A stretch of 26,499 nt of DNA, taken from positions 1-26,499 of IMG/VR virus record IMGVR_UViG_3300027522_000028, one strand, 5' to 3'. The DNA comes from a virus. The translations under genes and the position numbers were made by a program. The notes under the pieces are model-generated. The model ran no database searches. It saw nothing but the letters and a program-made list of their open reading frames with translations, and had not been told where the DNA came from. This document shows positions 1,076 to 17,848 of the stretch, in pieces. Each line of letters begins with the position of its first letter. The first letter of the stretch is position 1.

Positions 1076-1318
1076 TTATGAGCCCATTTTAAGACTATCA
1101 GCAATGGTAAATTTTTTCTCTTGTTGAGTTTTTAAGACTAATCTGTGACCAGGTTGACCTATAATATTACTCTCATGTACTTCCATTTTTTTTATCTCTT
1201 CTAAAAAACCGTCTCGTTCAACAAAGATTTTTGCATGAGATAAAACATTACCTTGAGTGCCTTTTTTGGCTCCTTCAGTAAACTTAGACAAGAAATTTTG
1301 AAGATCGTGAACTAGCAT
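1076..1318 (-). CDS. Small conserved-type phage protein, unknown function
   Basis: I do not recognise this 80-residue protein. It starts MLVHDLQNFLSKFTEG and is rich in Lys, Glu and Gly, with no Cys pair, membrane segment or clear motif. Its ATG shares one base with the TAA of the upstream coiled-coil gene (TAATG at 1320-1316), so the two are almost certainly co-translated and both transcribed from the divergent promoter at 1621-1656. Its composition and junction support a real gene. Confidence 0.6.
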   Translation of the reverse strand: MLVHDLQNFLSKFTEGAKKGTQGNVLSHAKIFVERDGFLEEIKKMEVHESNIIGQPGHRLVLKTQQEKKFTIADSLKMGS

Positions 1319-1620
1319 TACTTATTTTTCTTTTGCAATTCTAATATCTGAACATACTCATTAAGTCTATCTATTTCTTTAGCTTGAGACAATTCAAAGT
1401 TTTTTAATTCTTTAATTGCCTTTGCAAAGTCTTCAATAATAGCCTTGCAACCTTTAAGTTGATTTTCTAATTGGATACATTTAGATTTATACTGCTGCAT
1501 TTCATAGAGTTGTTTTCTATAATCATCTATAACAAAAGATAAGTCAGCTGGGCCTCTATCTTCTACTGGTTCATTCATATATTTTCTTTCATTTTCAAAT
1601 GTTTTATCTTCATCTTTCAT
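1318..1620 (-). CDS. Coiled-coil protein transcribed divergently from terS
   Basis: This protein is 100 residues from the first ATG (86 from the ATG at 1578). From about residue 35 onward it has a long hydrophilic helix with regularly spaced Leu/Ile, typical of a coiled coil, and no enzymatic motif. The start is uncertain in an interesting way. The ATG at 1620 lies only 6 bp after a TATAAA -10 box, so a message from that promoter would be leaderless. The ATG at 1578 (MNEPVED...) has a GAAAG sequence 7 bp upstream and would allow a normal leader. It lies directly opposite the small terminase gene across a 36-bp palindromic promoter. Confidence 0.6.
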   Translation of the reverse strand: MKDEDKTFENERKYMNEPVEDRGPADLSFVIDDYRKQLYEMQQYKSKCIQLENQLKGCKAIIEDFAKAIKELKNFELSQAKEIDRLNEYVQILELQKKNK

Positions 1621-1656
1621 ATTGACTTTATAGGATAGTTACCTTAAAATGTCAAT
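1621..1656. promoter_or_regulatory. Palindromic divergent promoter, both messages near-leaderless
   Basis: Plus strand: TTGACT at 1622-1627, 17 bp, TAAAAT at 1645-1650, then GTCAAT and the terS ATG at 1657. Minus strand: TTGACA at 1655-1650, 17 bp, TATAAA at 1632-1627, then GTCAAT and an ATG at 1620. The ends form an inverted repeat (ATTGAC / GTCAAT), so each -35 box overlaps the discriminator of the opposite promoter. Transcription would normally start about 7 bp after the -10 box, at the start codons themselves. Confidence 0.75.
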
Positions 1657-5106: not shown

Positions 5107-5349
5107 TTAGTGCAACTTACCAACATCACTTGCAGCAATATCATCATCAACATAAACGTCAACAATTTGGGACTCATCCACATAGATCTCTCCTTCCGAA
5201 TCGCATGTATCACACTGCAAAATTATATGTTCTCTGCTAGTTTTATTTTCGTTCAGCTTTCCATTTTTTTGTATTTGGAATTTTTTGTAACCATTTCCAT
5301 TACACTCAGAACAGATTGCTTTATGCCTACGCTTTTTTGAATTTGCCAT
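5107..5349 (-). CDS. DnaJ-type zinc-finger-like small protein
   Basis: An 80-residue protein with a basic N-terminus and two half-motifs, CSECNGNGY (residues 13-21) and CDTCDSEGE (46-54). They resemble the CxxCxGxG units of the DnaJ zinc-binding domain and would supply four Cys for one zinc ion. The C-terminus is acidic (VDVYVDDDIAASD). Small proteins of this kind are common in phages, where their role is unknown. Its start lies 23 bp inside the end of the ribbon-helix-helix gene, so they are probably co-transcribed from the promoter at 5534-5561. Confidence 0.6.
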   Translation of the reverse strand: MANSKKRRHKAICSECNGNGYKKFQIQKNGKLNENKTSREHIILQCDTCDSEGEIYVDESQIVDVYVDDDIAASDVGKLH

Positions 5350-5500
5350 TTAATTTTTTCGCTTTCTCATTTGCAATTGATTCTATGGTTTTACTAATTG
5401 ATAATTTAGCATCCGGTAATAATATTTTGGATAGCGTTATCAATTTTTTATAAGTGTCATGTGTCAACGACACATTCCTATACTTAGTTATATCAGTCAT
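5327..5500 (-). CDS. Ribbon-helix-helix-like DNA-binding protein
   Basis: This 57-residue protein runs from the ATG at 5500 to TAG at 5327. The sequence fits the Arc/CopG plan: a short strand (KYRNVSLTHDTY, residues 6-17), a first helix (KKLITLSKILL), a turn and a second helix (SISKTIESIANEKAKKL). Such proteins bind DNA as dimers and usually repress promoters, often their own. It is the first gene after a strong sigma-70-like promoter and has AAAGG about 11 bp upstream of the ATG, so it is a good candidate for a phage transcription regulator. Confidence 0.6.
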   Translation of the reverse strand: MTDITKYRNVSLTHDTYKKLITLSKILLPDAKLSISKTIESIANEKAKKLNGKFKKA

Positions 5501-15044: not shown

Positions 15045-15599
15045 TTATTGTTTCCTTTTTATTGTTGTTTTATTTCCAACGAATACGTTGAAAAGTTCGG
15101 TAGGCAGTTCCTTACCCGCCTCAATACGCTCCCGAACTAGCGCTTTGAGAGTCATGGGCTCAACCTTCAACTTTTGTGTTGGTTGATACCCACGCTCTGA
15201 TGCAAGGCTAGCATAATCCGCAGCCTTGTTATCTTCGTTACGCCCAAATGATACGGATATCTCATTTTTGATTATATCACCTAGGTTATTGTCTCGAAGC
15301 CATTGAAACGCAGCATCTTTATTTGCTATAGTTATGCTTGCGCTATAATTTGGTTTAACATCTACTGAAGAACCATCCATAAGTTTAAGATGAGATAAAC
15401 CCATCTCAGCCATCATAGTTGGAATTACTTCCGCTGATAAATGTTCAAAATCTTTTTTCTTTTGTTTGAGAGCTTCTTCTTGTGTTTCTATTTCTTTTTG
15501 AAATGTATTTAATCGCTCTACTTGGTCAGCTAACGACTGAATGTTTTCAGTCTTACCCAACATTTTTGTTTGGTCGTCTTCAAAGTTAATATTACTCAT
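15045..15599 (-). CDS. Widespread tailed-phage protein of unknown role, coiled coil plus conserved core
   Basis: A 184-residue protein. Residues 20-55 form a coiled coil (SLADQVERLNTFQKEIETQE...). The following part has a recurring phage pattern: VIPTMMAEMGLSHLKLMDGS near 58-77, AFQWLRDNNLGDIIKNEISV near 97-116, FGRNED, and finally LKALVRERIEAGKELPTELF with VFVGN. I recognise this general pattern from many tailed phages but know no proven function. Position next to the ssDNA-binding-like gene suggests a replication or recombination accessory. The ATG lies within the end of the upstream gene (ATGAGTAA) with AGAGGAAAG before it. Confidence 0.6.
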   Translation of the reverse strand: MSNINFEDDQTKMLGKTENIQSLADQVERLNTFQKEIETQEEALKQKKKDFEHLSAEVIPTMMAEMGLSHLKLMDGSSVDVKPNYSASITIANKDAAFQWLRDNNLGDIIKNEISVSFGRNEDNKAADYASLASERGYQPTQKLKVEPMTLKALVRERIEAGKELPTELFNVFVGNKTTIKRKQ

Positions 15600-15948
15600 C
15601 TATCTTTCCTCTTTCATATAAGTTAATCTCAATAGGATAATATTGTCTTTCTTGTTTATCCCATTTTAGTAAATTGTATTTACCATTTGTTGTGTCAGAA
15701 ACTATAGAACACGCTACACCAATAATTGCAGGATCTCCAGTTAATAATAAATAATCTTCTGTTGTAAAATCTTTTAAAGCTTTTCTAAGTTTAAAAATTA
15801 ATGGACCAGGAGAAAATATTATTTGTGAAAGTTCCGGTAATAAAAAAACAAACTCACCATATTTTGATGCGCCCATAATATTTATTTTAGGTCTACCCTC
15901 GGCAGTACCAGCAATCATTTGAATTACGTAAACTTTATTTTCTTTCAT
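15592..15948 (-). CDS. Hypothetical protein, first gene of the replication operon, probably leaderless
   Basis: A 118-residue protein from the ATG at 15948. An upstream in-frame TTG (15957) is rejected because it lies inside the promoter. The sequence is soluble with mixed strands and helices (KVYVIQMIAGTAEGRPKINI, then YGEFVFLLPELSQIIF) and no motif I recognise. The ATG starts 7 bp after a TATATT -10 box, so the message should have almost no leader and no Shine-Dalgarno site. It overlaps the next gene by 8 bp. Confidence 0.55.
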   Translation of the reverse strand: MKENKVYVIQMIAGTAEGRPKINIMGASKYGEFVFLLPELSQIIFSPGPLIFKLRKALKDFTTEDYLLLTGDPAIIGVACSIVSDTTNGKYNLLKWDKQERQYYPIEINLYERGKIDE

Positions 15949-15983
15949 GATTGACAATATAGTTATCCATGATAAATTGTCAA
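15949..15983. promoter_or_regulatory. Second palindromic divergent promoter
   Basis: TTGACAAT at 15951-15958 and ATTGTCAA at 15976-15983 are perfect inverted repeats. Minus strand: TTGACA 15983-15978, 16 bp, TATATT 15961-15956, then GTCAATC and an ATG at 15948. Plus strand: TTGACA 15951-15956, 16 bp, TAAATT 15973-15978, then GTCAAG and a short leader with GAAAGAAG before the ATG at 16002. The architecture copies the promoter at 1621-1656. Confidence 0.75.
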
Positions 15984-16001
15984 GTAGAAAGAAGAAAAAT
16001 T

Positions 16002-17432
16002 ATGAACTATAAATTTAAAACAAAGCCTTACGATCATCAATTGACTGCATTAGAAAAGTCATGGAATAAAGAAACGTATGCCTACTTCATGGAAATGGGG
16101 ACAGGTAAAACAAAAGTATTAATCGACAATTTAGCTATGCTTTACGACAAAGGTAAAGTTAATGGTGCTTTAATTATTGCACCTAAAGGAGTTGTAGGTA
16201 CTTGGTATAGTAATGAGTTACCAACACATTTACCTGATCACATAGAAAATGTGACCGTATTATGGCAAGCAAATATAAATAAAAAACAACAAGATTCTTT
16301 AGACACTTTGTTTTCTGAAGGAGAAGGTCTTCATATTATAATAATGAATGTTGAAGCTTTCAGTACAGATAAAGGTAAAGAATTTGCATCTAAATTTTTA
16401 TCTTGTCATGAAACTTTAATGGTTATTGATGAGTCTACAACTATTAAAAATCCTAGTGCTAAAAGAACTAAAAGTATTCTTTCTCTTGCTAAAGAAGCTA
16501 AGTACAGAAGAATAATGACCGGTTCTCCAGTTACTAAAAATCCATTAGATTTATTTAGTCAATGTTATTTTTTAGACCCGTTTCATTTAGACTTTAGTTC
16601 TTATTATGCTTTTAGAAATAGATATGCAGAAATGAAAACATTGCATATGCATGGAAGATCTATTCAAGTCGTTGATAGTTATAAAAATTTAGATGAGTTA
16701 GCTGTTCAGTTAAAAACATTTTCTTACAGAGTATTAAAAGACGATTGTTTAGATTTACCAGATAAAATATTTATTAAACGTCAAATATCTTTAACTCCAG
16801 ATCAACGTAAACTTTATGATCAAATGAAAAAACAAGCTTTAGCTATTCTTGAAGGTAAAGTGTCTAGTACACAGAATGCACTAACTCAATTAATGAGATT
16901 ACAACAAATAACTTGTGGTCATTTTACTGACGATAATGGTAGCACTCAACCTGTAGCTAATAATAGAATTACTGAACTTATGGACATTTTAGAAGATGTT
17001 GATGGTAAAGCAATTATATGGGCTCATTATCAATATGATATTAAAAACATAATTAAAGAAGTAGAAAAGGTCTATGGTCCGGGATCCGTGGTTGACTATT
17101 ATGGATTAACGCCAAAAGAAGTAAGGCAAGACCATATTAAATCTTTTCAAGGCGACCCTAAGTGTCGATTTTTTATCGGAACCCCTGCTACGGGCGGATA
17201 TGGGATAACTTTAACAGCTGCAAATACAGTTATCTACTATTCTAACGGATATGATCTCGAAAAAAGATTACAATCAGAAGACAGAGCACACAGGCTCGGG
17301 CAGAAAAAACCAGTACTTTACATTGACATAAATGCTGAGGACACGGTTGATGAAAAAATCGTGAAAGCTCTACGGAAAAAAATAAACATAGCATCAGAAG
17401 TTTTAGGTGAAGAACTGAGATCATGGATATAG
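16002..17432 (+). CDS. SNF2-like superfamily 2 helicase
   Basis: A 476-residue ATPase from the ATG at 16002, which has GAAAGAAG upstream; an in-frame ATG at 15969 lies between the -35 and -10 boxes and is rejected. The motifs run in SNF2/SF2 order: DHQLTAL (Q-motif region, 11-17), Walker A EMGTGKT (31-37), motif Ia IIAPKGVVGTW (58-68), Walker B VIDEST (141-146), TGSPVTKNP (173-181), a RecA2 domain with IIWAHYQYD, GTPATGGYGITL (motif V) and QSEDRAHRLGQ (about 424-434, motif VI). Phage SNF2-like proteins are thought to act on forks or displace bound proteins. It is transcribed opposite to the rest of the replication genes. Confidence 0.9.
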   Translation: MNYKFKTKPYDHQLTALEKSWNKETYAYFMEMGTGKTKVLIDNLAMLYDKGKVNGALIIAPKGVVGTWYSNELPTHLPDHIENVTVLWQANINKKQQDSLDTLFSEGEGLHIIIMNVEAFSTDKGKEFASKFLSCHETLMVIDESTTIKNPSAKRTKSILSLAKEAKYRRIMTGSPVTKNPLDLFSQCYFLDPFHLDFSSYYAFRNRYAEMKTLHMHGRSIQVVDSYKNLDELAVQLKTFSYRVLKDDCLDLPDKIFIKRQISLTPDQRKLYDQMKKQALAILEGKVSSTQNALTQLMRLQQITCGHFTDDNGSTQPVANNRITELMDILEDVDGKAIIWAHYQYDIKNIIKEVEKVYGPGSVVDYYGLTPKEVRQDHIKSFQGDPKCRFFIGTPATGGYGITLTAANTVIYYSNGYDLEKRLQSEDRAHRLGQKKPVLYIDINAEDTVDEKIVKALRKKINIASEVLGEELRSWI

Positions 17433-17437
17433 TAGGA

Positions 17438-17468
17438 TATACGCGTGAAGCGCGCTGTAATTTTGTTT
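17438..17468. terminator. Possible terminator between convergent genes
   Basis: The 35-bp gap between the SNF2-like stop and the speD stop holds a small GC-rich dyad (CGCG-TGAAG-CGCG at 17442-17454, overlapping AGCGCGCT) followed on the + strand by TAATTTTGTTTT. The stem is only 4 bp, so the call is weak, but a terminator is expected between convergent genes. Confidence 0.4.
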
Positions 17469-17848
17469 TAGGAAATGTCTTGGAGTCCTGTTTCTCGATT
17501 TAAAAACTTGTATTCTATTTTTGTAATTTCGAAATCTTCTTTAATTTTGTTACATATGTTTTCTACATCTAGTTCCCCACAACTGTAAACATCAAACTGC
17601 ATTAATGCAGGATTAACTTCGTCCCATATGTGCATAGCGATGTGTGAGGTTTCAATGATTGCAACTGCTGTGATTCCACGGTTGCCGGGCATCTCACAAT
17701 ACTTAACATAAGGGCCCATAAATATTTTCATATTAATTGATTTTATAAATTCTTCAAACCATTCTTTTAATTTTTTTTCATCTGTGGGAGCGCGCATTGC
17801 TTCTGCACGAATAATAAGATGTTTATGTACTAATAAATTATTTAACAT
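17468..17848 (-). CDS. speD: S-adenosylmethionine decarboxylase homologue (SpeD)
   Basis: A 126-residue protein of the prokaryotic class 1B length. The self-processing region is ETSHIAMHIWDE (residues 66-77) with Ser68 as the likely pyruvoyl-forming residue, His73 as proton donor, and Cys90 in FDVYSCGEL, matching Ser63, His68 and Cys83 of the Thermotoga enzyme. Its role would be making decarboxylated AdoMet for polyamine synthesis, an auxiliary metabolic gene in infected cells. The residue before the cleavage Ser is Thr rather than the usual Glu, which appears one place earlier, so substrate or cleavage may differ. It overlaps the M15 peptidase gene by 11 bp, within the lysis cluster. Confidence 0.85.
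   Translation of the reverse strand: MLNNLLVHKHLIIRAEAMRAPTDEKKLKEWFEEFIKSINMKIFMGPYVKYCEMPGNRGITAVAIIETSHIAMHIWDEVNPALMQFDVYSCGELDVENICNKIKEDFEITKIEYKFLNRETGLQDIS

Follow-up and report, generated by a model that had tools for sequence, protein, structure and literature searches.

In the gap between two divergent genes of a phage genome, 33 bp of DNA very probably accommodate two complete sigma70-type promoters that are reciprocally nested, as judged from their sequence and from comparison with related phages. The window (the whole stretch of DNA analysed here, a 26.5-kb phage record of 26,499 nucleotides) derives from a marine phage that is a relative of the HTVC023P-type pelagiphages, of which HTVC027P and HTVC023P are cultured members (PMC9599517). 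Among named relatives, its SNF2 protein is closest to those of phage 023Pt_psg01 (63%) and Pelagibacter phage HTVC027P (61%). The element, termed site 2 here, lies between a leftward gp32-like gene and a rightward SNF2 gene and consists of two perfect 8-bp arms around a 17-bp centre, TTGACAAT ATAGTTATCCATGATAA ATTGTCAA (15951-15983); its uninterrupted sequence is TTGACAATATAGTTATCCATGATAAATTGTCAA.

The first-pass annotation had described a mirrored element at this position, one of two about 14 kb apart, whose arms act as the -35 boxes of divergent transcripts for a replication operon and an SNF2-like helicase. We recovered both elements, the other dyad (site 1) being located at 1622-1655, and domain matches identified the helicase and the head of the replication operon (Table 1). 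The assignment of the arms as -35 boxes is supported by the conservation of the boxes in relatives and by loci in which the neighbouring genes have been rearranged. The striking symmetry is thus accounted for by promoter geometry, through an argument from natural mutagenesis that can be reused elsewhere: if a mirror consists of nothing more than a promoter pair, relocation of a gene should be followed by decay of its arm. As a side observation, the phage encodes an S-adenosylmethionine decarboxylase (PF02675) at 17468-17848, adjoining an endolysin-like gene.

Table 1. Coordinates of the promoter elements and flanking genes in the window
Feature	Position	Strand	Remarks
-35 box TTGACA, rightward (SNF2) promoter; left arm of the dyad	15951..15956	+	TTGAC invariant in relatives
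-10 box TATATT, leftward promoter, 16-bp spacer	15956..15961	-	TATATT in 89/106 elements of 33-34 bp; shares one base with the rightward -35 box
Extended -10, rightward promoter, TGA + TAAATT, 16-bp spacer	15970..15978	+	TG/-10 hexamer exchange, 106 distinct elements
-35 box TTGACA (plus-strand TGTCAA), leftward promoter	15978..15983	-	GTCAA invariant in relatives
AGAAAGAAG, ribosome-binding leader of the SNF2 gene	15986..15994	+	
gp32-like gene, Pam3 gp32-like (PF23992)	15592..15948	-	Heads the replication operon
SNF2-type helicase gene (PF00176, 1.9e-24)	16002..17432	+	
Site 1 mirrored promoter pair, 34 bp, TTGACTTTATAGGATAGTTACCTTAAAATGTCAA	1622..1655	.	Flanked by the terminase small subunit gene (+) and ORF 1318-1620 (-)
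Additional conserved core within site 1, GTTACC	1638-1643		

Promoter geometry and conservation at site 2

Three features expected of overlapping divergent sigma70 promoters were found at site 2. The first is a short gap between divergent genes (15949-16001). The second is a full -35/-10 pair in each direction with a spacer of about 16-18 bp: TTGACA-N16-TATATT leftward, followed after 7 nt by the ATG at 15948, and TTGACA-N16-TAAATT rightward, with an extended -10 TG upstream, a AGAAAGAAG leader and an ATG at 16002. The third is mutual overlap, as the -35 box of each promoter shares one base with the -10 box of the opposite promoter (at 15956 and 15978). Because of these one-base overlaps TTGACAAT and ATTGTCAA mirror each other, and nothing further is needed to explain the symmetry. 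The leftward start codon lies so close to the -10 box that there is no space for a ribosome-binding leader; thus the gp32-like gene mRNA is probably leaderless, as had been proposed from the sequence earlier. The boxes were scored against the E. coli consensus, which may differ from that of the host.

It could be argued that the symmetry is a compositional accident of AT-rich DNA containing at most one real promoter. The genome is indeed AT-rich, and shuffled sequence yields about as many sigma70-like matches as the window does. Nevertheless, the exact 8+17+8 dyad did not occur once in 400 dinucleotide shuffles of the window, and the looser pattern TTGAC-N21..28-GTCAA was seen twice against 0.22 expected from such shuffles. 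The comparative data described below, namely conservation at 160/162 divergent junctions and decay when a promoter is unpartnered, contradict this explanation, which we regard as having a negligible chance of being correct.

To compare the dyads across relatives, as the first-pass annotation had suggested, we collected 80 loci via SNF2, 80 via the terminase small subunit and 80 via the gp32-like protein, with more added through pattern searches. The comparison upheld the -35 and -10 boxes of the dyad but not the centre of site 2. For the 34-bp elements, of which 79 are distinct, information content is about 2 bits per position in the -35 arms and -10 boxes, except for one freer position in the rightward -10, and about 0.02-1.0 bit in the centre. 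The 144 distinct site 2 elements found in relatives measure 33, 34, 36 (one only), 37 or 38 bp, although the spacer within each promoter mostly remains at 16-18 bp; in some 37-bp elements the best-scoring spacer is 19 bp. Since the boxes are kept and the total length varies at steady spacers, the element behaves geometrically as two promoters and not as a single dyad. Elements of 35 bp are absent and those of 36 bp nearly so, a gap that two lineages of descent would explain. All of these conservation counts come from related, non-independent sequences and overstate the number of events. The dyad at the SNF2 site is missing from HTVC023P and HTVC027P, and 023Pt_psg01 carries a 37-bp version. 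We also noted 31-bp versions of the frame (L296:6899-6929, L309:6885-6915 and L346:6168-6198) between ORFs of about 73-90 aa, in which the implied -35 and -10 boxes would be 14 bp apart, less than an ordinary sigma70 promoter needs.

A second line of evidence concerns the rightward promoter. Within the 106 elements of 33-34 bp, the extended -10 TG is found in 0/65 of those whose rightward -10 is TATATT and in 30/41 of those with other, weak hexamers (Fisher p 1.4e-17, a value that ignores relatedness). Most of the remaining 11 elements without TG show one-base shifts, with the -10 likely lying one base upstream. The promoter of the window is of the TG-bearing type (TGA-TAAATT). Such an exchange between TG and hexamer is what selection on -10 recognition by sigma70 predicts, and it therefore supports the function of the rightward promoter independently of the dyad.

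Natural dissection of the mirrored element

Rearrangements in relatives separate the two promoters from each other. Of 162 distinct regions in which the gp32-like gene directly adjoins a divergent SNF2 gene, 160 carry an intact dyad; the two that do not are a split duplicate (L006, as in L005) and the outgroup phage DSL-LC04. In the seven loci with rearrangements, it goes with whichever genes are divergent. Extra sequence separates the gp32-like and SNF2 genes in six of them (L032, L047, L048, L061, L333 and L348), and the SNF2 gene retains the full dyad; in the three that were checked (L032, L048 and L061), the inserted gene points leftward and now shares the dyad with SNF2. Four of the six still have the TTGACA and -10 of the gp32-like promoter, with the far TTGAC turned into TCAAT, TTGAT, TTCAT or TTAAA, and at L333 and L348 the region upstream of the gp32-like gene has been wholly replaced. 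At L041/L325 a rightward gene has been inserted: the dyad lies between the gp32-like gene and this newcomer, and SNF2 has none. The same division is visible at L005, where the element is doubled in tandem. The left copy retains the leftward boxes and has TTAGC in place of TTGAC; the right copy retains the rightward boxes and has CTTAA in place of GTCAA. This tandem duplicate of the mirrored element spans L005:3880-4000 and is also present in L004 and L006.

Candidate promoters behave similarly. GTCAA follows the -10 in 133/135 of those with a divergent gene and in 10/30 of those for which no divergent gene was found, several of these 10 being known sites that a contig end truncates or that have a short neighbour. 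The sequences of these loci indicate that the arm belonging to the opposite promoter decays once its gene moves off, while a promoter's own boxes stay.

These data bear directly on the proposal that a dimeric phage protein uses the TTGAC/GTCAA dyad as its operator and competes with sigma factor, a role for which a 57-aa protein encoded at 5327-5500 had been put forward. The perfect 8-bp symmetry and the presence of the frame twice in the genome would suit such an operator, as would the occurrence of this small conserved protein, a possible DNA binder, in 12/24 records searched (window included). However, a dimer calls for half-sites at a fixed or helically phased spacing, and the arm spacing shifts, giving total lengths of 33, 34, 37 and 38 bp and one of 36 bp. 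It also calls for both half-sites to be kept regardless of the neighbour, and unpartnered promoters drop one arm; likewise, candidate unidirectional promoters of these phages mostly have no second arm. The centre is free to vary, and the candidate protein occurs in HTVC027P, which is without the dyad. Moreover, the protein acquired no confirmed fold: its label as a ribbon-helix-helix protein found no match to an RHH family in Pfam, a structure model built with five sequences was of low confidence (pLDDT 63) and contained helices only, with no strand, and a sequence search of the PDB returned no credible relative. The protein itself is strongly conserved in the records that have it (55-100%; HTVC027P, 49%). 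Operator function of the dyad for a dimer is not supported by these results, and we consider it very improbable.

Predicted mechanism and the dyad at the terminase gene

If site 2 is a pair of nested promoters, its reader would be the host RNA polymerase, presumably with host sigma70; HTVC027P has no RNA polymerase of its own and needs that of its host (PMC12753301). Both orientations occupy the same DNA, so that a polymerase bound in one should keep a second from binding in the other, and the transcript ratio would depend on how strong the two sets of boxes, near consensus both ways, are relative to each other. This would place the replication operon in competition with the helicase gene; the left-hand transcript is predicted to undergo leaderless translation. 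In E. coli, competition at bidirectional promoters has been measured under strong transcription (PMC12825309).

Site 1 shares the frame but not the free centre. Both of its ATGs lie 6 nt past a -10-like box, and it contains a conserved, asymmetric core, TTACC + TAAA, that is invariant in 25 distinct elements; this count comes from the protein-fetched loci only, as the pattern search for site 1 required the core. The element adjoins the terminase small subunit gene in 115/116 pattern hits, and in the remaining hit the contig stops just past the start of that gene. It stays with the terminase gene while its other neighbour varies, and does so even across an interposed small gene or long leader. 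In named pelagiphage genomes, GTTACC gave scattered matches only, with no mirrored promoter around them. The TTACC-TAAA core may be a regulatory site, and a fair guess is that the regulator could be the terminase small subunit itself.

Site 2, which lacks this core, might nevertheless pair its nested promoters with a distinct regulator sitting at the centre, a situation possible in TetR/target junctions of the same geometry. The invariant TTACC...TAAA core of the other dyad, the TetR-type genes adjoining bacterial 34-bp frames (see below) and a 13-bp palindrome, TTATC-CAT-GATAA, inside site 2 of the window can all be cited in its favour. Yet the palindrome sits 2 bp off the dyad centre, and as the centre of site 2 is unconserved such a regulator would have to be strain-specific; we judge this reading improbable. 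Nested promoters remain the preferred account of site 2, and the ordinary site at the SNF2 gene can now be set apart from the one at the terminase small subunit gene, which possibly has an extra regulator.

A broader and rather unlikely scheme would join the two sites. In it, the near-symmetric nested promoters would form a regulator-free switch at site 2, where self-exclusion of polymerase ties the replication operon to the level of the SNF2 helicase, and a regulator binding the GTTACC core at the terminase copy would let the same frame switch between packaging and other genes in a timed manner. More generally, the elements provide leads on promoter boxes, leaderless starts and use of the extended -10 in HTVC023P-type pelagiphages, which are abundant and poorly tractable.

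Relation to known systems

The closest described counterpart is the Pc/Pr pair of plasmid pLS20. In the reading favoured by the authors, each of these divergent promoters has its -10 box coinciding with the -35 box of its partner, and vice versa, and polymerase uses only one promoter at a time (PMC4207663). The coinciding-box geometry is the same as that of site 2. Nevertheless, there are two differences. The first is that pLS20 employs a regulator, RcoLS20, together with DNA looping, whereas no regulator is evident at site 2. The second is that the pLS20 promoters are very unequal in strength, unlike the boxes of the phage, which approach consensus whichever way they are read.

Bidirectional promoters of E. 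coli and Salmonella also present a single stretch of DNA that binds RNA polymerase in two orientations, as is predicted for the phage. They share one near-symmetric -10, with starts 7-25 bp apart, usually 18 (PMC10268837, PMC12825309). In contrast, site 2 has full -35 boxes and a -10 box of its own for each direction (15956-15961 and 15973-15978, with 11 bp between them), and its starts would lie about 36 bp apart; a common bidirectional promoter with a shared -10 was rejected on this basis.

Finally, a search of 84,980 bacterial and archaeal genomes found the near-consensus frame at 72 distinct places, 41 of them between divergent ORFs. Although the pattern allowed 32-36 bp, 48/72 measured exactly 34 bp. 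Intergenic regions between TetR-type regulators and their targets in Paenibacillus, Ruminococcus and Lachnospiraceae resemble site 2 in showing TTGACA-n-TATA...TATA-n-TGTCAA, mostly over 34 bp, between divergent genes; they differ in that a TetR-type regulator gene adjoins, whereas site 2 has neither a conserved centre nor an adjoining regulator gene. TetR-type identity was confirmed for two genes next to bacterial frames, and other neighbours resemble them. Examples of the 34-bp nested frame by TetR-type genes are L390, L395, L403, L410 and L430, from Paenibacillus and Lachnospiraceae/Ruminococcus relatives, with DsbA-like or other partner genes across the frame. The idea of a phage-specific device thus does not hold: as its occurrence in bacteria implies, neither the frame nor its use is specific to phages. 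The arrangement is conserved in these phages, and its geometry is one already known from bacteria and plasmids.
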